The notes under the pieces: model-generated | The model's database searches: none | Told to the model about the DNA's origin: nothing | The model's input: only the letters and a program-made list of their open reading frames with translations | Shown here: positions 3,108 through 62,648 of the stretch, one piece after another | Numbering within the stretch: the stretch's first letter is position 1 | Layout of the letters: every line of letters begins with the position of its first letter | Position numbers and translations under genes: made by a program | DNA from: Paenibacillus tianjinensis | GTDB lineage: Bacteria; Bacillota; Bacilli; Paenibacillales; Paenibacillaceae | Assembly: GCF_017086365.1 (NCBI RefSeq) | Contig: NZ_CP070969.1 | Location: 1,798,001-1,862,000 of the forward strand | DNA length: 64,000 nucleotides | Reading direction: 5' to 3'

Positions 3108-3155
3108 TCAGCTTTGCATGCAATCCAGTCCAAACAAAAATAGGAGGTAATGCTA

Positions 3156-3548
3156 GTGTACGCACAAAACGGATCGGCATTTATGGCAGATGAGGACCTG
3201 CTGACTATGATTCTGGATGACCTGAAACGGACAGTACGCGAGTATACGACAGCGGCTACCGAATCCAATTGTCAAACCGTGCGCCGGGTCTTCAATGACT
3301 TGACCATGGATACACTGCGTATTCAGGGGGATCTGTTCAACCAGATGTCTCAGATGGGATTCTATCAAACACCAGACAAAGCCCTTCGCCAAGCTGTGGA
3401 CAAGCAGATTCAAAGCGCCCAGCAAACGCAAGCAAAATGCCAGCAGTTCGTACAGCAGAAGACAGGCGGGGCCGGAAATTATACTCAGGCGGCAAATGTA
3501 CCGCTGCACCAGGCAAATGTGCATAGCCAAAACTCTTACTATATGTAA
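3156..3548 (+). CDS. CotF-family spore coat protein
   Basis: Coat_F-type helical protein. MADEDLLTMILDDLKRTVRE, TTAATESNCQTVRRVFNDL and LRIQGDLFNQMSQMGFYQTP match the family pattern of two long helices with a conserved MGWY-like turn. It ends in an N/Q/H-rich, Tyr-ending tail typical of coat proteins. An ATG at 3150 lies only 2 nt after AGGAGG (3142-3147). The in-frame GTG at 3156, 8 nt after it, is the better start and gives 130 residues. Expected location is the spore coat or the forespore surface; its exact role is unknown. Confidence 0.8.
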   Translation: MYAQNGSAFMADEDLLTMILDDLKRTVREYTTAATESNCQTVRRVFNDLTMDTLRIQGDLFNQMSQMGFYQTPDKALRQAVDKQIQSAQQTQAKCQQFVQQKTGGAGNYTQAANVPLHQANVHSQNSYYM

Positions 3549-3661
3549 CCCTTCTCCCCTTGAGGTGAAGCACCGCAAGGCAATGCTTCGTCTGTAAAAA
3601 GATAGGGGTAATCCGTCCGGCGAAATTTTTCTAAGGACGGTGTTTAAGGTTATTGATGTGA

Positions 3662-3684
3662 TGACCCCGCCCCGGCGGGGTTAT
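3662..3684 (+). terminator. intrinsic terminator
   Basis: GC-rich hairpin (ACCCCGCC paired with GGCGGGGT) followed by TATTTTGTTT, placed after the two coat genes and ahead of the Lrp-type regulator. Confidence 0.7.
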
Positions 3685-12931: not shown

Positions 12932-13027
12932 TTAAATGTGTTAGGTACAAGCTAAAAGGCAAGAATGGCACTTCACTTTTATCACAGACAAGGTCTGGCG
13001 TGGGCCTCTATAATGGATTGGAAAATT

Positions 13028-13205
13028 AGCGAAGAAACAAGGTGCCCTTGTCAGGCGAGGGGTAACAGGGAATCGGGTGAAACTCCCGAGCGGTCCCGCC
13101 ACTGTAAGAAAGAGCTGAACTTCAGGATGTCACTCGGCAAGGCTGCCGGGGAAGACGAAGATTTGGCGTTTGTATTTCGAGCAAGGAGACCTACCTTGTT
13201 GGCGC
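13028..13205 (+). ncRNA. cobalamin riboswitch (aptamer)
   Basis: The B12-box core is present: AACAGGGAATCGGGTGAAAC, CCCGAGCGGTCCCGCCACTG and the 3' motif GCAAGGAGACCTACCTTG. These are the conserved elements of the AdoCbl-class aptamer in order. It lies about 300 nt before the first corrin gene on the same strand. Boundaries are approximate. Confidence 0.93.
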
Positions 13206-13402
13206 ATACCACGACTCTACGCGGATAAGAGCGGTGTACGAACGGGTTAATGAAATAGAGGCCGGGCAGCTTCCGCCGCTGACGGGAATCCTGAGATTTG
13301 TTGCGGTATCAGCCGGAATAAGCTGCTGTATTGCATTTCTGTGAAGGTTCCGGGCTGTAGCAGACCGACATCCTCTTTTGCATAACTGATGACGTACATA
13401 GC

Positions 13403-13498: not shown

Positions 13499-16126
13499 AT
13501 GGAGAAACAAGGAAAGCTGCTGATCATCGGCTTTGGCCCCGGTGCCCTGGAACAGATTACAGGCCGAGCCCTCGCTGCGATTGAGGAGAGCGAAGCGATC
13601 ATCGGTTACAACACTTACGTCGAGCTTATTAAGCCGCTGCTGAAGCATCAGGAAATTGTCGGCACAGGGATGACCGAAGAAGTGAGCCGGGCTCAGGAAG
13701 CGGTGCGCCGGGCGGAGGCGGGCCAGACGATTGCCGTCATCTCCAGCGGGGATGCCGGCGTGTACGGAATGGCCGGACTGGTCTATGAGGTGCTGATGGA
13801 ACGCGGCTGGAATCGTACAGATGGTGTGGAGGTTGAGGTAATCCCCGGAATATCGGCGATTCAGTCCTGCTCGTCCCTCCTCGGAGCGCCGATTATGCAT
13901 GATTCGTGCACGATCAGCCTAAGTGACCATCTGACTCCATGGGAGAGCATTGCCGCGCGGGTTGATGCAGCGGGTGCTGCGGATTTTGTCATTGCCTTTT
14001 ATAATCCGCGCAGCGGCAAGCGGACGCGCCAGATCGAGGAGGCGCGCAGTATTCTGCTCCGCTACCGGGATCCGGCCACACCGGTAGGCATTGTCAAGAA
14101 TGCCTACCGGGACCGCCAGCAGGTCGTTGTAACGACGCTGCAGGCGATGCTGGAGCATGAGATCGGCATGCTCTCTACAGTCGTGGTAGGCAACTCTGCT
14201 ACCACTGTGTATGACGGCCTGATGGTGACGCCGCGCGGTTATGAGCGCAAGTACAATCTTGGCGCGCAGACCCAGGCGCTGAAGCCTCATGAGCGGCTGC
14301 GGACCGCAGCGGAGCCCTGGTCGCTGGCGGCTGCAGCGCAGAGCACTTCCGGCAGCGGCGGGAGCTGCGGCATTGCGGACAGCAGTGCCCCTGCTGTCCT
14401 GCAGAATATGCCCCGGGCGAATGCTTCTGCTGTATTATCGGCAATTGAGTTTGAAACGGCCGGACTTGAGGTTTCACCGGGGCTTGGCAGCCGGAGATAC
14501 AGCAGTACCCAGCTGCATCTGCTGGCAAAGCTTGCAGGCGATGAAGGTCAGCTTGTGTCTTTAAAGGACGGAGATTTTGTCCTGCGCAGCAGTCACTGCG
14601 GTCAAGAGGAGATTGCGGATAAACTGGCTGCTGCCGGGCTGAATGTCAGCCGGCCGGGTGATTTTGTAAAAGTGAAAACCTGCGGGTTCTGTGAGTTCAG
14701 AAAAAATGAAGGTCTTGGAGCAGCTATCCGCCTGCATGAGCGGCTTCATGGGCTTGCTGTCCCCCGAGGGCTACAGATCAGTGTTGCCGGCTGCGGCATG
14801 GCCTGCAGCTCGGCGGTACTGGAGGATATCGGCGTCGTGTACTCCAGAGGCAGCTATGAGCTTTACCTTGGTGGGAAGAAGACGGGCCGGGGGGCACATG
14901 CAGGCAGCCTGGTTCGTGAAGATATGAACGAGGATGAAGCTGTCGAAGCGGTAGCCGCTGTTGTAGAGCAATACCGGAATAAAGGAAAGGCAAACGAGCG
15001 TTTTTTTTCTTTTTTTGAGTCGATGGGCAGCGTGGAGAGCGGAGTATGGGGAACTGGGCAAGCGGATAACACAAGCTGGAGCGGAGAGAAGAACAGGATG
15101 ACCCAAAAAACAATACTGCTTGTAGGCCATGGCAGCCGGATTGAAGAGGGCAATGAGGAACTGCGGAGTTTTACAGCTCAGCTTGCTGCCCGTAAGCCTG
15201 AGCTGAACATTGAAACCTGCTTCATCGAATTGGCTTCTCCTTCAATTGCCGGAGGGATTGAACGATGTGTAGCCGGCGGTGCCGGGGTGGTGTATGTTGT
15301 GCCGATTATTTTATTTGCGGCAGGACATTTCAAGCTGGATATCCCTCTGGCGATTGACCAGGCTAAACGCAAATATCCTGAAGTGGAGTTTGTTTACGGA
15401 CGCCCGGTTGGAGTGCAGGAGAGAGCGGTGGACATTTTGCTGGACCGGATCTCAGAGGCAGTTCCTCTGACACTGAGGGATAAACCTATGACAGACACGG
15501 TAGCGGCCGAGGATACTATTGTGCTTGTCATGGGCCGAGGCGGGAGCGATCCCGATGCAAACAGTGACTTTTACAAGCTGGCAAGGCTGCTGTGGGAGCA
15601 CACTGCTTATAAAAGCGTTGAGAGCTGCTTCATCGCCATTGCCCGTCCATCGCTGAACGAGGGCCTGGAACGCTGTCTGGCACTGGGTGCGCGTAAAATT
15701 GTAGTGCTGCCGTATCTGCTCTTCACCGGAGTGCTGATGAAGCAGTTTACAGAGAGGGTCGCAGAGTTTGCCACAGCGCATCCGGAGGTCGAGGTGGAGC
15801 TCGGCAGCTATATCGGCAATCATCCGCTGCTGGCGGATATGCTCGCAGAGCGTATTGAGGAGACGCTGGAAGGCAAGTCCTTCGCCAACTGCGATAACTG
15901 CAGATACCGGGATGCAGCAGGATTGCATCACCATCATCATCACCATCATGGTGAAGAAGGACACGGGCATGACCATGGGTATGGACACAACCATCAGCCT
16001 CATCATGCTGATGAACATGACCCGCACCATGGTCACGATCATCATCACAGGCATTCCCATGCACATGATCATGAACATGATGAATCTGTTCCAGCGGCTG
16101 CTTCAGGCAGCCCGAAGGAGCTGTAA
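13499..16126 (+). CDS. cbiH-cbiX: CbiH60-CbiX fusion: precorrin-3B C17-methyltransferase, Fe-S domain and sirohydrochlorin cobaltochelatase
   Basis: 875-residue protein with three parts. Residues 1-245 are CbiH (GFGPGALEQITGRALAAIEE, SSGDAGVYGMAGL, DFVIAFYNPRSGKR), which performs ring contraction. Residues about 330-510 are a sulfite/nitrite reductase-like Fe-S domain with TCGFCEF and GCGMACSSAV, as in B. megaterium CbiH60. From residue 534 comes CbiX, with two homologous chelatase halves (LLVGHGSRIEEGNEEL and VLVMGRGGSDPDANSDFYKL), a CxxC (CDNCR) and a His-rich tail with an H8 run, like CbiXL. The ATG at 13499 follows GGGGGAAAAAG. The ORF crosses a T8-C-T7 tract at the CbiH/CbiX junction, and an internal ATG at 15098 has its own SD (GGAGAG), so separate products are possible. 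Confidence 0.9.
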   Translation: MEKQGKLLIIGFGPGALEQITGRALAAIEESEAIIGYNTYVELIKPLLKHQEIVGTGMTEEVSRAQEAVRRAEAGQTIAVISSGDAGVYGMAGLVYEVLMERGWNRTDGVEVEVIPGISAIQSCSSLLGAPIMHDSCTISLSDHLTPWESIAARVDAAGAADFVIAFYNPRSGKRTRQIEEARSILLRYRDPATPVGIVKNAYRDRQQVVVTTLQAMLEHEIGMLSTVVVGNSATTVYDGLMVTPRGYERKYNLGAQTQALKPHERLRTAAEPWSLAAAAQSTSGSGGSCGIADSSAPAVLQNMPRANASAVLSAIEFETAGLEVSPGLGSRRYSSTQLHLLAKLAGDEGQLVSLKDGDFVLRSSHCGQEEIADKLAAAGLNVSRPGDFVKVKTCGFCEFRKNEGLGAAIRLHERLHGLAVPRGLQISVAGCGMACSSAVLEDIGVVYSRGSYELYLGGKKTGRGAHAGSLVREDMNEDEAVEAVAAVVEQYRNKGKANERFFSFFESMGSVESGVWGTGQADNTSWSGEKNRMTQKTILLVGHGSRIEEGNEELRSFTAQLAARKPELNIETCFIELASPSIAGGIERCVAGGAGVVYVVPIILFAAGHFKLDIPLAIDQAKRKYPEVEFVYGRPVGVQERAVDILLDRISEAVPLTLRDKPMTDTVAAEDTIVLVMGRGGSDPDANSDFYKLARLLWEHTAYKSVESCFIAIARPSLNEGLERCLALGARKIVVLPYLLFTGVLMKQFTERVAEFATAHPEVEVELGSYIGNHPLLADMLAERIEETLEGKSFANCDNCRYRDAAGLHHHHHHHHGEEGHGHDHGYGHNHQPHHADEHDPHHGHDHHHRHSHAHDHEHDESVPAAASGSPKEL
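14981..15018 (+). promoter_or_regulatory. putative programmed -1 frameshift cassette between CbiH60 and CbiX
   Basis: AAAGGAAAGG (14981-14990) is SD-like. Ten nt later come two T_TTT_TTT heptamers in the proper phase (15001-15007 and 15010-15016). Slipping on the second puts TGA (15016-15018) next in the -1 frame; slipping on the first reaches the same TGA after three codons. Spacing and order equal the E. coli dnaX cassette. No clear 3' stem-loop was found. Confidence 0.5.
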
Positions 16127-17637: not shown

Positions 17638-18765
17638 ATGACCGGAGAGAAAGGAATGGACGGGCAAGCGGCGGCTGGGAGTCCGGCTCCGATACGCCGG
17701 GGCTATACGACTGGTGCCTGTGCAGCAGCAGCAGCCAAAGGGGCGGCACTCCTGCTCATAACCGGTGAAGCACCGAATAGCGTAGAGCTCTACTTACCAG
17801 CGGGATTTCATCACCGCTTTGAATTGACCGGCTGCGAGCGCCAGGGTGACATTAGCGCGACCAGCGCAACAATTAAGGATGCCGGGGATGATCCCGATGC
17901 GACACACGGGGCGTGGATTGAGGCTACGGTGAGCTGGCTGGATCACCCCTCCATCGAGATTGACGGCGGAACCGGCGTCGGCCGGATAACAAAACCGGGC
18001 CTGCCGGTGCCAGTCGGCGAAGCGGCAATCAATCCGGTACCGCGGCGGATGATCATGGAGGCTGTCTCCGAGGTGCTGGAGGAACATGGTGCAGCGCGCG
18101 GACTGCGGGTAGTTATCAGTGTCCCCGAAGGCGAAGCGATTGCCCGAAAGACACTCAACCCGCGGCTCGGCATCCTGGGCGGCATTTCCATTCTTGGTAC
18201 GCGCGGCGTAGTAACTCCGTTCTCTACCGAAGCTTATCAGGCGAGTATCGTGCAGGCGATTTCGGTTGCCGCTGCTTCCGGGAACGGCCAGCTGGTATTG
18301 ACCACCGGAGGCAGCAGTGAAAAACATGCGCAGGCGATGTTCAATGAGCTTCCGGAGGAAGCTTTTATCCAAATGGGTGAATATGTAGGGTTCTCACTCG
18401 GCCATGCCAAAGCTTACGGATTTCAGAAAGTGACGCTGGTGGGCATGGCCGGTAAATATTCCAAGGTGGCGCAAGGTGCGATGCTGATCCATTCCAAAAA
18501 TGCGCCTGTAGACTTCGGCTTTCTCGCCGCCGTTGCCGCTGAAGCAGGGGCTGATAAACGGCTGGTACAGGAGGTTGCAGGCGCAAATACCGCCTCTCAG
18601 GTCGTGGATCTGATGACCGAGGCGGGGCATTTAGATTTTTTTGAACAGCTGTGCCGTCATGCCTGCATGCAATGTCTGAAGCAGGTGAATGGAGGCATGA
18701 CAGTGGAGATGGTGCTGATTACGATGAAGGGCAGGCTGCTGGGGAGGGCGGAGATCCGTGGATAA
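17638..18765 (+). CDS. cbiD: cobalt-precorrin-5B (C1)-methyltransferase
   Basis: 375-residue CbiD. It starts with the family motif RRGYTTGACAAAAAKGAALL, then HGAWIEATVSW, TGVGRITKPGLPVPVGEAAINP and LGGISILGTRGVVTPFS. It is specific to the anaerobic pathway (the aerobic route uses CobF), so this operon makes B12 by early cobalt insertion. Start is 17638; an in-frame ATG at 17656 after GGAGAGAAAGG is a good alternative, 6 residues shorter. Its stop overlaps the GTG start of cbiET by 8 bp. Confidence 0.95.
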   Translation: MTGEKGMDGQAAAGSPAPIRRGYTTGACAAAAAKGAALLLITGEAPNSVELYLPAGFHHRFELTGCERQGDISATSATIKDAGDDPDATHGAWIEATVSWLDHPSIEIDGGTGVGRITKPGLPVPVGEAAINPVPRRMIMEAVSEVLEEHGAARGLRVVISVPEGEAIARKTLNPRLGILGGISILGTRGVVTPFSTEAYQASIVQAISVAAASGNGQLVLTTGGSSEKHAQAMFNELPEEAFIQMGEYVGFSLGHAKAYGFQKVTLVGMAGKYSKVAQGAMLIHSKNAPVDFGFLAAVAAEAGADKRLVQEVAGANTASQVVDLMTEAGHLDFFEQLCRHACMQCLKQVNGGMTVEMVLITMKGRLLGRAEIRG

Positions 18766-32928: not shown

Positions 32929-33369
32929 TATGCACGGGTTGTCGAATTGTGACGTGAGACGACACAAGGGATGTAAGGGACATTAGTTCCAGTGTTTGGT
33001 CTTTAATTGAAATAACATCCACCTACGTATATATTATCTAACACTATATGAAGGTTTTAGGTTGTTTTTGATCAAAGTTTCATTAAAATATACTATATTT
33101 AAATCCAGGAATAATTACATTCGAATATTTGTGTAATGTTATTTCACCTATTAAGTTATGAAAATTACCTTTTGGATTAAAGATAGTGTGTCTCTTTTTA
33201 CCATAATTTCACTTTTGAATCAGGCACCATAACTAAATTCAATGCTAAAAATGTGATATTTTACACAACTATTGAACTTAGTTTATGATTTTCGCTAGAT
33301 TCATATAATCCCATATGATACAATCTTCCTCGGTCACTATAAAGAAAAAACTGGGAGGATTAATCGCTT
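32929..33369 (+). other. AT-rich promoter region of the surface nucleotidase
   Basis: About 440 bp, clearly richer in A+T than its surroundings. TATAAT (33304) and TACAAT (33319) are possible -10 elements, without a good -35. RBS CTGGGAGG is near 33351. No gene is recognised. Confidence 0.4.
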
Positions 33370-36300
33370 ATGGGAGAAAGACGATGGAACAAGCCGGTAG
33401 CTTCTATACTGGCAACCACGGTTCTGACTGCACAAGTTTTAAGCGGAGTTTTTGCAGGGCCGATTTTGGGAGTAAAGAAGGCTGCGGCAGCGGGCGCTGA
33501 AGTGGTTGCTGCTGGAGCGGTTAATCTGCGCTTGATGAGTACTACAGATGTTCATACTAATGTGAAAAGCTGGGACTACTTTAAAAACAGTGAATCCTTA
33601 ACAGTGGGGTTGGACAAAACAGCGACTTTGGTGAAACAAGCCAGAGCAGAGGACAAAGGGAAAATCAATCTTTTACTAGATAATGGCGATTTGATACAAG
33701 GCACACCACTGGGAACTTATATGGCGAAGCAGATGGACGCAGACGGCAATCTTAACCAAATTCATCCGATGATTGCTGCTCTGAATGCCATGCACTACGA
33801 TGCGGCTACCATGGGGAATCATGAATTTAATTATGGTTTGGATTATCTGGAGAGCATAACCTCCGCAACATCCGCTACTTATAAGTATACAAATATTCCT
33901 TTTTTGAATGCGAATGTATATGTGGATGACAAGGACGATAATCCAGATAATGATGTTAATTATTTCACTCCATATAAAATTGTAGATAAAACATTTACAG
34001 ACAGTAACGGAGTAGAGCAGACGCTTAAGGTCGGTCTGCTTGGGTTGGTAACACCGCAAATTATGCAATGGGATAAAGCCAATCTGGAAGGTAAGGTAAT
34101 CACCAAGGATATTGCCGAAACAGCTGGAAAATATGTTCCTTTGATGAAAGCTGAAGGTGCAGATATTATTGTCGCTATGGCACATACGGGATATGATGGT
34201 TCTGCTGTGATAGGTGACGGCTCAGAAAATGACATTAATGCACTCAGCAAGATTCCTGACATTGATGCCATTACATTCTCACATACCCATAAGATATTCC
34301 CTGCTGCAGACGAAACATCTCTGGATGCGTTGTTCAAGGATAATTCCGGAAAGGTACTTCCGGGCATTGACAATGCCAAAGGCCAGATTAACGGTGTTCC
34401 GGCCGTTCAGGCCGGCTATGGCGGTGGTTATCTGGGACTGATCGATCTTGCTATTGTTCCTGATCCGCAGAAGAGCGGACATTGGAAGGTGGACAAGACG
34501 GCTTCCCTTTCATCCACACGTTCTATTTATAAAACGGAAAACAAGGTAAACTACACTACTGTTGAACCGGATGCAGAAGTAGACGCGGTTGTTGATGCTG
34601 CTCATAAGGCAACGATCGACTATGTCAATCAACCGCTGGGTATAACGGATGTACCTATGAACAGCTACTTTGCTATGGTGCAGGATGATCCGACTGTACA
34701 GATTGTGACCTATGCTCAGAAGCATTATGTTGAGAATCTGATTAATACTGATCCGGCTTTAGCCCAGTATAAAGGGAAAGCCATTCTCAGTGTAGGTGCA
34801 CCATTCAAGGCCGGACGCAATGGTCCGGATGAATATACTGAAATTGCAGCAGGCCCCTTGACCATTCGCAGCGCAAGTGATTTATACCTCTATGACAACA
34901 CGCTGAAAGCAGTCATGATCAAGGGTTCCACAGTAAAAGAATGGGTGGAGATGAGCGCGGGTGCCTTCAATACTATTAACCCGGCAATTTCCACGCCGCA
35001 GGCACTGCTCAACTCTCAATTTGCGGTCTACAATTTCGATGTTATCGATGGAATCCAGTATAAGATAGACGTTACCAAAGATGCGAAATACGATCCGAAA
35101 GGTAATATCATCAATGATTCGTACAGTCGGGTTACGTCCATTACGTATGACGGCAAGCCGCTTGATATGAATCAGGACTTTATCGTCGTTACCAATAACT
35201 ACCGTGCAAGCGGCGGAGGTAACTTCCCGGGTCTCAAAGGTATCACTCCGATTATTGATACATTGGAAGAGAACCGTCAGGTTCTGATGGATTATATTAA
35301 GGCAGAGGGCAACGTTAAGCAGCCTGCTGATAACAACTGGTCCATCCAGCCGATTAAGGGAGATGTCAAAGTAACCTTTACCTCTTCTCCAAAAGCAAAA
35401 AAAGTTTTGCCTACCAATGAGAAAATTACCGATACAGGCACTATGGATAGCAAAGGGTTTGAGATTTATAACCTGGATCTGAGCGGGGATATCAAGGTTC
35501 ACATTCTTGGAATCAATGACCTGCACGGACAATTGGATACAACGTCTTATGTTGGCGACAAGCCTGTAGGTACGGCAGCTATTCTCGCAGCATACCTGAA
35601 AACAGCACGTGCGCAATACGATAACACATTGCTAGTCCACAACGGGGATTCCGTGGGGGCTTCTGCTCCGGTATCCTCTCTGGAGCGCGACAAGCCGACT
35701 CTGGAATGGATGAACATGATGAAGTTTGATGTCGGGACTTTGGGCAACCATGAGTTTGACCAGGGTGTAGCAGCACTGAAGGCGCAAATCTTTGGCGGTG
35801 TAGACCCAGTCAATAAGAATGTTACGCATGAACCAGTGAATTTTGACTATATCAATGCTAATGCGGTTGACAAAGAAACCGGAAAACCAATCATCAAGCC
35901 TTACGTAATCAAAGAAGTTGGCGGCGTGAAAATTGGATTTATCGGTGTCGTTACCAAAGCTACTCCAAGTAAAGTATCTCCAAAGGGAACAGAAGGCGTG
36001 AGATTCCTAAGTGCTGAGGAAGAAGTAGCAGCCATTAACAAATATGCAGCTGAGCTTCAGGCTGAAGGAGTTCAAACGATTATCGTCCTTGCCCATGATC
36101 CGGCAACGACCAAATCTGGAGTGACTACAGGGGAAGCTGCGGATTTAGCCAACGCCCTTCCGAAGGATTCTCCAGTTGATGTAATCTTGGCGGGTGACAA
36201 TCACGCATTAGCCAATGATGTAGTAAACAACAAGCTGATAGTTCAAGCTTATTCCTATGGTACTGCGTTTGAAGATGTCAAATTGGTTATTGACCCGGTT

Positions 36301-37728
36301 ACCAAAGATGTCAAATCCAAAACAGCTTCTGTAATTTCCACTTTCCAAGAAGGTGTGACCCCAGATGCAGAAACGGTGGCTTTGGTGGATAAATATCTCA
36401 AACTTCACCCTGAGCTTACTCTGCCTGTAGGGACTACTGACGGAACAATCACCCGTACAGATGCTTACAACAATGAATCTGCCCTGGGTAACTTAATTGC
36501 TGACGCAATGCGGCAAGCTGATTTCGGTGACGGAGTAGCTACTGCTGATTTCGCCTTTATGAATCCGGGCGGCATCCGTGCAGATCTTCCGAAAGGCAAT
36601 GTATCTTTTGGTGATCTTGCCAAAATTCAGCCATTCGGTAACACATTAGTAAAGCTGACTCTTACCGGTGAACAAATCAAAACGTTACTCCAACAGCAAT
36701 GGGCAACTAAAGCTGATGGAACTGCAGATACGAAGACACTGCAAATTTCGGGCTTGAAGTATTCCGCTGATATGGATCTGCCTGTGGCAAGCCGCGTTAT
36801 TTCCCTTACTAAGGCAGATGGAACACCAATCAGCATGACTCAAAGCTATACTGCCGTGGTTAACAATTTCATGGCTGCAGGTGGCGATAACTATAAGGTG
36901 TTGACCTTAGCCAGTAAATCCCTGGCTGGTCCAATTGATTTGGATGTATTTTACGATTACATTAAGAAAACTTTCAAAGGCGGTCAGATCACAGCGAAGA
37001 TCGAAGGCCGGATCAACAACAAACCTGTTCCTACTACCACTCCAACTCCGACTCCAGTAACCATTCCAGGCGGAACAGGAACAGCAACACCAACACCAAC
37101 TGCAACACCGGCACCAACAACAAGCCCTGCACCTTCGGCAACACCGGCACCAACAGTGAAGCCGGTTCCTTCGGCAGTACCGTTCAAGGATCTGGGCAAG
37201 GTAGTATGGGCTCAGGAAGCCATCAGCTCCCTGGCTACAAAAGGGATCTTGAAGGGACTTGAGGACGGCAACTTCGCACCAATGAAGAACGTTACCCGTG
37301 CGGAATTTGTTACTATGCTCGTTCGTGCCCTAAACCTCAGCAACTCCAATGCATCGGCAAGCTTCAGCGATGTGAAGCAGGGTGCATGGTATACTGACTC
37401 TATCGCTGCTGCTGTCCAGGCAGGTCTTGTCAAAGGCTCCGGAAACGGCAAATTTGAACCGGGTCGTCAAATTACCCGCGAAGAAATGGCGATTATGATT
37501 GTCAATGCTCTTGCAGGACAATTGCCTAAGATTGACACTTCTGCGGCTCTAGGTGAATTTGCTGACAAGTCCTCCATTGCCCCTTATGCTCAGGAAGCTG
37601 TTGCACAGCTGACTCAGGCGGGAATTGTAAATGGTGTGGACGGCGGTAAATTCGCACCGAAAGCAATCGCGAACCGTGCGCAGGCTGCAGTCATTATTTA
37701 CCGTATGCTGGAGAACAAAGCTTCCTAA
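33370..37728 (+). CDS. SLH-anchored two-module 2',3'-cyclic nucleotide phosphodiesterase / 5'-nucleotidase
   Basis: 1452-residue exported protein. It has a signal peptide (basic N-terminus, hydrophobic VASILATTVLTAQVL, AAAAG). Module 1 (about 50-670) is CpdB-like: DVHTN, DNGDLIQG, GNHEFNYG, SHTHKIF, then PFKAGRNGPDEYTE. Module 2 (about 700-1215) is UshA-like: NDLHGQL, HNGDSVGAS, GNHEFDQG, GDNHALA, FMNPGGIRADL. A Pro/Thr linker (1218-1268) leads to three SLH domains (1270-1450). It resembles B. subtilis YfkN, which has the same two enzymes but a sortase anchor. It should scavenge phosphate from extracellular nucleotides. The third SLH has NRAQ instead of TRAE. Confidence 0.93.
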   Translation: MGERRWNKPVASILATTVLTAQVLSGVFAGPILGVKKAAAAGAEVVAAGAVNLRLMSTTDVHTNVKSWDYFKNSESLTVGLDKTATLVKQARAEDKGKINLLLDNGDLIQGTPLGTYMAKQMDADGNLNQIHPMIAALNAMHYDAATMGNHEFNYGLDYLESITSATSATYKYTNIPFLNANVYVDDKDDNPDNDVNYFTPYKIVDKTFTDSNGVEQTLKVGLLGLVTPQIMQWDKANLEGKVITKDIAETAGKYVPLMKAEGADIIVAMAHTGYDGSAVIGDGSENDINALSKIPDIDAITFSHTHKIFPAADETSLDALFKDNSGKVLPGIDNAKGQINGVPAVQAGYGGGYLGLIDLAIVPDPQKSGHWKVDKTASLSSTRSIYKTENKVNYTTVEPDAEVDAVVDAAHKATIDYVNQPLGITDVPMNSYFAMVQDDPTVQIVTYAQKHYVENLINTDPALAQYKGKAILSVGAPFKAGRNGPDEYTEIAAGPLTIRSASDLYLYDNTLKAVMIKGSTVKEWVEMSAGAFNTINPAISTPQALLNSQFAVYNFDVIDGIQYKIDVTKDAKYDPKGNIINDSYSRVTSITYDGKPLDMNQDFIVVTNNYRASGGGNFPGLKGITPIIDTLEENRQVLMDYIKAEGNVKQPADNNWSIQPIKGDVKVTFTSSPKAKKVLPTNEKITDTGTMDSKGFEIYNLDLSGDIKVHILGINDLHGQLDTTSYVGDKPVGTAAILAAYLKTARAQYDNTLLVHNGDSVGASAPVSSLERDKPTLEWMNMMKFDVGTLGNHEFDQGVAALKAQIFGGVDPVNKNVTHEPVNFDYINANAVDKETGKPIIKPYVIKEVGGVKIGFIGVVTKATPSKVSPKGTEGVRFLSAEEEVAAINKYAAELQAEGVQTIIVLAHDPATTKSGVTTGEAADLANALPKDSPVDVILAGDNHALANDVVNNKLIVQAYSYGTAFEDVKLVIDPVTKDVKSKTASVISTFQEGVTPDAETVALVDKYLKLHPELTLPVGTTDGTITRTDAYNNESALGNLIADAMRQADFGDGVATADFAFMNPGGIRADLPKGNVSFGDLAKIQPFGNTLVKLTLTGEQIKTLLQQQWATKADGTADTKTLQISGLKYSADMDLPVASRVISLTKADGTPISMTQSYTAVVNNFMAAGGDNYKVLTLASKSLAGPIDLDVFYDYIKKTFKGGQITAKIEGRINNKPVPTTTPTPTPVTIPGGTGTATPTPTATPAPTTSPAPSATPAPTVKPVPSAVPFKDLGKVVWAQEAISSLATKGILKGLEDGNFAPMKNVTRAEFVTMLVRALNLSNSNASASFSDVKQGAWYTDSIAAAVQAGLVKGSGNGKFEPGRQITREEMAIMIVNALAGQLPKIDTSAALGEFADKSSIAPYAQEAVAQLTQAGIVNGVDGGKFAPKAIANRAQAAVIIYRMLENKAS

Positions 37729-62576: not shown

Positions 62577-62648
62577 AAGTAGACATGTTTTTTTGTTTTT
62601 TTCAGCAGGATTCGACAATATAGTAACGAAATAGAAGAATACTGCCGA

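Follow-up and report, generated by a model that had tools for sequence, protein, structure and literature searches.

The window, that is, the whole stretch of 64,000 nucleotides that was analyzed, contains a gene in which cbiH60 and cbiX are joined in one open reading frame (ORF), with a cobalamin riboswitch aptamer upstream (Table 1). CbiH60 is the ring-contraction methyltransferase and CbiX the cobalt chelatase of vitamin B12 synthesis. The ORF starts with the ATG at 13499 and stops at 16126, and the single protein carries the Pfam domains TP_methylase (residues 6-216), NIR_SIR (residues 407-510, the C-terminal domain of CbiH60) and CbiX, the last in two stretches. That one ORF joins CbiH60 and CbiX had been claimed in the initial annotation of this DNA and is borne out by the ORF, by its Pfam domains and by 32 relatives with the same fusion; every letter and coordinate given there for the T tracts, the Shine-Dalgarno (SD)-like site, both TGA codons, the ATG and the GGAGAG was also right. 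Judged by gene order only, the ORFs after the fused gene read as cbiJ, cbiC, cbiD and so on. The closest relatives differ, always by whole codons, in how long the His-rich C-terminal tail of CbiX (15924-16086) is.

Table 1. Features of the fused cbiH60-cbiX locus, in window positions.
Feature	Position	Strand	Basis
Cobalamin riboswitch aptamer preceding cbiH60-cbiX	13023..13212	+	Rfam RF00174, 119.2 bits
Fused cbiH60-cbiX gene, 875 aa	13499..16126	+	ORF; Pfam TP_methylase, NIR_SIR, CbiX
NIR_SIR domain of CbiH60, residues 407-510	14717..15028	+	Pfam PF01077
SD-like AAAGGAAAGG, ten bases upstream of the T tracts	14981..14990	+	Sequence; duplex -7.9 kcal/mol
T8-C-T7 tract (codons TTT TTT TCT TTT TTT after CGT); candidate site of slippage and possible hot spot for mutation	15001..15016	+	Sequence
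TGA in the -1 frame, made by TTT GAG (Phe-Glu) codons	15016..15018	+	Sequence
GGAGAG, SD site of the inner start	15083..15088	+	Duplex -8.8 kcal/mol
In-frame ATG where cbiX starts in unfused relatives	15098..15100	+	Comparison
TGA in the +1 frame, overlapping the ATG (ATGA)	15099..15101	+	Sequence; in G056 cbiH60 and cbiX meet at this ATGA
Free CbiX (342 aa), predicted from initiation at the inner ATG	15098..16126	+	Translation; product inferred

Near the junction the reading frame passes through T8 (15001-15008), a C (15009) and T7 (15010-15016) before GAG. Zero-frame TTT codons lie at 15002, 15005, 15011 and 15014, and the heptamer T_TTT_TTT, which is not of the A_AAA_AAG type, is found twice in the phase for a -1 shift (15001-15007 and 15010-15016). 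A -1 product ending at the TGA at 15016-15018 would count 506 residues. In the protein, the tracts correspond to the C-terminal edge of the NIR_SIR match and not to a free linker. The duplex energy of the SD-like AAAGGAAAGG is equalled by 8.8% of windows across the ORF. The double tract is rare, since T7-N-T7 was found at just three places in the 6.27-Mb genome. One of the two other places falls in the same 64-kb window (T7-G-T7, 62588-62602). The single heptamer is not special, because T_TTT_TTT_GA is also found in phase at 18636-18642 within a neighboring gene of the same cluster (ORF 17638-18765). The initial annotation had interpreted the junction as a dnaX-like -1 frameshift cassette or slippage site, combined with an overlapping restart giving free CbiX.

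We searched 100 genomes of the window's genus for the fused protein and 394 genomes of its family for the junction. From the better of the matches listed, 108 junctions were tabulated, 45 of them from the window's genus. The two genes were fused in 33 of the 108 tabulated genomes and separate in 75. All fused genomes belong to the window's genus, where they make up 33 of the 45 tabulated. A further contig scan gave 23 loci, mostly distant; both genes could be placed in order in 10 of these and were separate in all 10, two of which (L162 and L167) probably stem from G374 and G194. A tree was built from the CbiH and CbiX domains of 48 genomes (44 of the 45 of the genus and four others, with two long rows omitted), and the fused genomes all fell in a single clade of 36 genomes with a support of 100/100. 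Related genomes are not independent counts. The fused or split state changed four times in all on the tree, which we read, most simply, as one in-frame fusion in the ancestor of this clade and three later splits (G056, G029, and G064). G064 was given no weight because its gene is broken in more than one place; it lies in at least three frames (L054 and L156), from a pseudogene or an assembly error. The NIR_SIR domain was absent by tblastn in 8 of the 33 fused genes (L025 from G006, L033-L036, L039, L044, and L045, at about five places in the tree), and seven of these eight also lack the inner CbiX ATG.

The T tracts were not conserved within this clade. An in-phase T_TTT_TTT was found in 7 of the 33 fused genes, the window included, and was missing from the other 26, of which eight lack the NIR_SIR domain entirely. 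Each of the seven heptamers sits at the peptide (A/S/T)FFE, with a further one at RFF in the window, and its presence depends on the codon before the conserved FF ending in T. A TGA after TTT TTT was found in nine of the 33 and is TTT GAG read one base back; the Phe-Phe-Glu codons create it. Genome G040, 93% identical to the window, is fused at the same place with T6 tracts and with both heptamers broken (cgg ttt ttt gcc ttt ttt gag); it is a relative of the kind that the initial annotation itself had named as refuting its cassette. A deletion of 669 bases in G006 took the NIR_SIR domain and the T tracts, leaving the frame, the SD site and the ATG, and the genes are still fused. No downstream stem-loop was found: in a test for stem-loops, shuffled sequences folded as well as the region 15017-15096 (z 0.59).

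These observations weigh on the proposal that a programmed -1 frameshift at T_TTT_TTT, aided by the SD-like site, supplies 506-residue CbiH60 in a fixed proportion along with the fusion. It would account for the two in-phase heptamers with an SD-like sequence at 10 nt and an immediate -1 TGA, and heptamer and TGA do occur together in the seven genes, five of them in one clade lacking the inner ATG. However, the site is missing even from the closest fused relatives, G040 and G006, it hangs on the last base of one codon, the stem-loop is lacking, and the identical heptamer lies in phase in the neighboring gene. In addition, U_UUU_UUU is reported to shift poorly in E. coli, far less readily than A_AAA_AAG (PMC5009743), and a large survey took a conserved site as a criterion for programmed frameshifts (PMC3711429), whereas the T tracts are not such a site. 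The dnaX-like cassette thus failed on its main points, and we consider programmed frameshifting highly improbable and reject it as the main mechanism. Most likely the T8-C-T7 tract is incidental: it encodes a conserved Phe-rich end of the CbiH60 domain and would be T-rich by chance in the window's species.

The close relative G029, one of the split genomes, carries the tract T8-C-T6, and the loss of one T splits the frames. Apart from this lost T, the fused ORF region of G029 differs in length from that of the window only by a single change of three bases in the His-rich tail. The cbiH60 frame of G029 stops 59 bases short of the conserved CbiX motif that served as anchor, and its cbiX frame offers three open start codons with SD energies of -8.6 (a TTG at the place of ATG 15098), -1.5 and -4.0; the TTG sits behind GGGGAG and is alone of the three in having a strong SD site. 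Compared to the window over 60,947 aligned bases, G029 has 43 frame-changing indels in ORFs, of which 30 are in the divergent ORF 33364-37728, eight in 3153-3680 and five isolated, including the tract deletion. Of the other four isolated indels, three lie at most 75 bases from the 5' end of a stop-to-stop frame and may precede the true start, and the fourth is in a run altered in G040 too, so that the tract deletion comes close to being the sole isolated internal one. The remainder of the 60 kb does not appear full of frameshifts. The long ORF 33364-37728 is unusually rich in indels relative to both close relatives. The lost T is possibly a homopolymer sequencing error, because nine of 48 runs of six or more had a changed length in G029, against five of 47 in G040, and the G029 genome is rated 95% complete with 4% contamination. 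A one-T loss in this tract makes the tract a possible hot spot at the DNA level; if the G029 split is real, it would indeed be one, and the inner start would suffice for CbiX.

Given that one T fewer yields separate frames, the fusion itself might be an assembly artefact of T counting, with the genes truly separate as in G029. This explanation is scarcely credible and was rejected, as the fusion recurs in 32 relatives, among them G040, whose junction lies at the same place and has T6 tracts.

RNA polymerase slippage on T8 and T7 is a further alternative. It would generate mixed mRNAs encoding the fusion and a truncated CbiH60, with CbiX restarted at 15098, and would fit the long T tracts, rare as a genomic pair, and a relative that differs by exactly one T. 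According to PMC1088944, a large proportion of genomes show evident selection against A/T runs of nine, though in some bacteria slippage may occur on shorter runs. The runs here count 8 and 7, under the usual length of about nine; they are not conserved, and the run of 8 is limited to the window's gene among the 33 fused genes. Therefore, transcriptional slippage was rejected as the main mechanism and appears very unlikely to explain the locus, although low-level slippage may occur in the window's species. A related possibility joins slippage with mutation: in the window's species slippage on T8-C-T7 would add free CbiH60 to the fusion and to the internally started CbiX, and the gain or loss of one T in the DNA would move lineages between the fused and the split state, changes that would be tolerable solely through the continued function of the enclosed cbiX start. 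We regard this as quite unlikely; if true, it would be a case of reversible gene fusion observed while under way.

The other part of the initial interpretation was free CbiX from an overlapping restart at 15098, and for this the comparison was favorable. The GGAGAG is separated by 9 nt from the ATG. A listed cbiX start with an SD of -8.6 kcal/mol or better was found in all 75 genomes with separate genes. The ATG was kept in frame in 19 of the 33 fused genes, all 19 with an SD of this strength, whereas one this strong precedes only 18 of the 550 other ATGs inside the 33 fused ORFs. SD and ATG were kept across these 19 genomes despite linkers that differ in length and sequence. The start region was among the most open 5% of its own ORF in 18 of the 19 genes with the ATG and in four of the 14 without. 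The combination of an SD of -8.6 or better with a fold of -5 or weaker was found for 13 of the 19 inner starts compared to five of 330 other AUGs in the same ORFs. In the window's ORF, scanned except for its last 90 bases, 15098 is the sole AUG with an SD of -7.5 or better. The split genome G056 shows the same position as a gene boundary, with cbiH60 ending and cbiX starting in the ATGA overlap; the SD is -9.1 and this ATG is the only ATG, GTG or TTG in frame from the last stop to the CbiX domain. Overall, the frameshift cassette is most likely incidental and the restart most likely real.

An alternative to a working restart is that the inner SD and ATG are decaying relics without function and that only the 875-residue fusion is made. 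The ATG is missing in 14 of the 33 fused genes, so free CbiX may not be needed, and three of these 14 still carry an SD of -8.6 or better at the matching place. The genes without ATG include the earliest branches of the tree (weakly supported, 82/47), so that repeated loss of the start, or loss and regain, must be assumed. Shuffling the codons of its own linker gave an SD as good as that of the window in a fraction of 0.30, a weak control, against 0.02-0.09 in the 14-genome sister clade. Openness is largely a matter of base composition, since shuffles of the same 50 bases do comparably (median p 0.16; 0.42 in the window). In the 14-genome sister clade the Gly codon of the SD is GGA throughout, which is only mildly unusual, because all-GGA was found in 3 of 63 invariant Gly columns of this clade (0 of 40 across all 19), and the test is a weak one. 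Against the relic explanation stand the joint conservation of SD and ATG in 19 genomes with differing linkers and the absence of both from 11 of the other 14 fused genes, and we find it unlikely.

Thus, we favor internal initiation and consider it likely that the operon gives both the 875-residue fusion and a free 342-residue CbiX. The start site of cbiX itself often still lies inside the merged gene, which suggests that both proteins are probably made. After the fusion, the old ribosome-binding site and ATG of cbiX stayed inside the fused frame, where they would still work. A single mRNA behind the cobalamin riboswitch would be translated in full to the fusion, and initiation at 15098 on the same mRNA would give free CbiX; a kept inner start on one riboswitch-led mRNA would therefore supply both. 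The loss of one T could then re-split the gene in a relative without the loss of CbiX. CbiX works at the step of cobalt insertion, before CbiL, which in turn precedes CbiH (PMC7242693). As CbiX precedes CbiH in the pathway, a pool of free CbiX above the CbiH60 level is plausible, and both products may matter.

Altogether, the genus appears to offer a natural series, from separate genes to a fusion with the inner start kept, a fusion with the start lost and genes that have separated once more. Such a series lets one follow what becomes of an enclosed start site after gene fusion. The predicted short CbiX of a vitamin B12 operon would be missed if only the 875-residue ORF were annotated, and a T-rich motif that looks like that of dnaX needs comparison before it is believed. 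Internal in-frame initiation is of a known kind; a literature search on CbiH60/CbiX fusions, with most subscription papers outside its reach, found neither a cbiH60-cbiX fusion nor such initiation within one.

In-frame internal initiation with N-terminally shortened products is known for bacterial infB/IF2 and cheA. The locus resembles these in having one ORF with a second in-frame SD and start, and two proteins with a common C terminus. It differs in that the inner start lies at the place where unfused relatives begin a separate gene and that the short product is predicted to be a whole enzyme. With E. coli dnaX it shares an in-phase heptamer, an upstream SD-like sequence and an immediate -1 stop, but it has U_UUU_UUU for A_AAA_AAG, no stem-loop was found, and the motif is not conserved in relatives. 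In Bacillus (Priestia) megaterium cbiH60 and cbiX are separate genes, whereas they are fused in the window. The operon order there is given as cbiWHXJCDETLFGA (PMC8123684), with H (CbiH60) adjoining X as in the window, and cbiH60 and cbiX were named and produced apart (PMC8390425). Frameshifting in chlD supplies chelatase subunits from a frameshift signal that is highly conserved (PMC9227772). Both chlD and the fused gene would give two chelatase products from one tetrapyrrole gene, the second being predicted here; the signal is conserved in chlD, whereas in the window's gene it is not.
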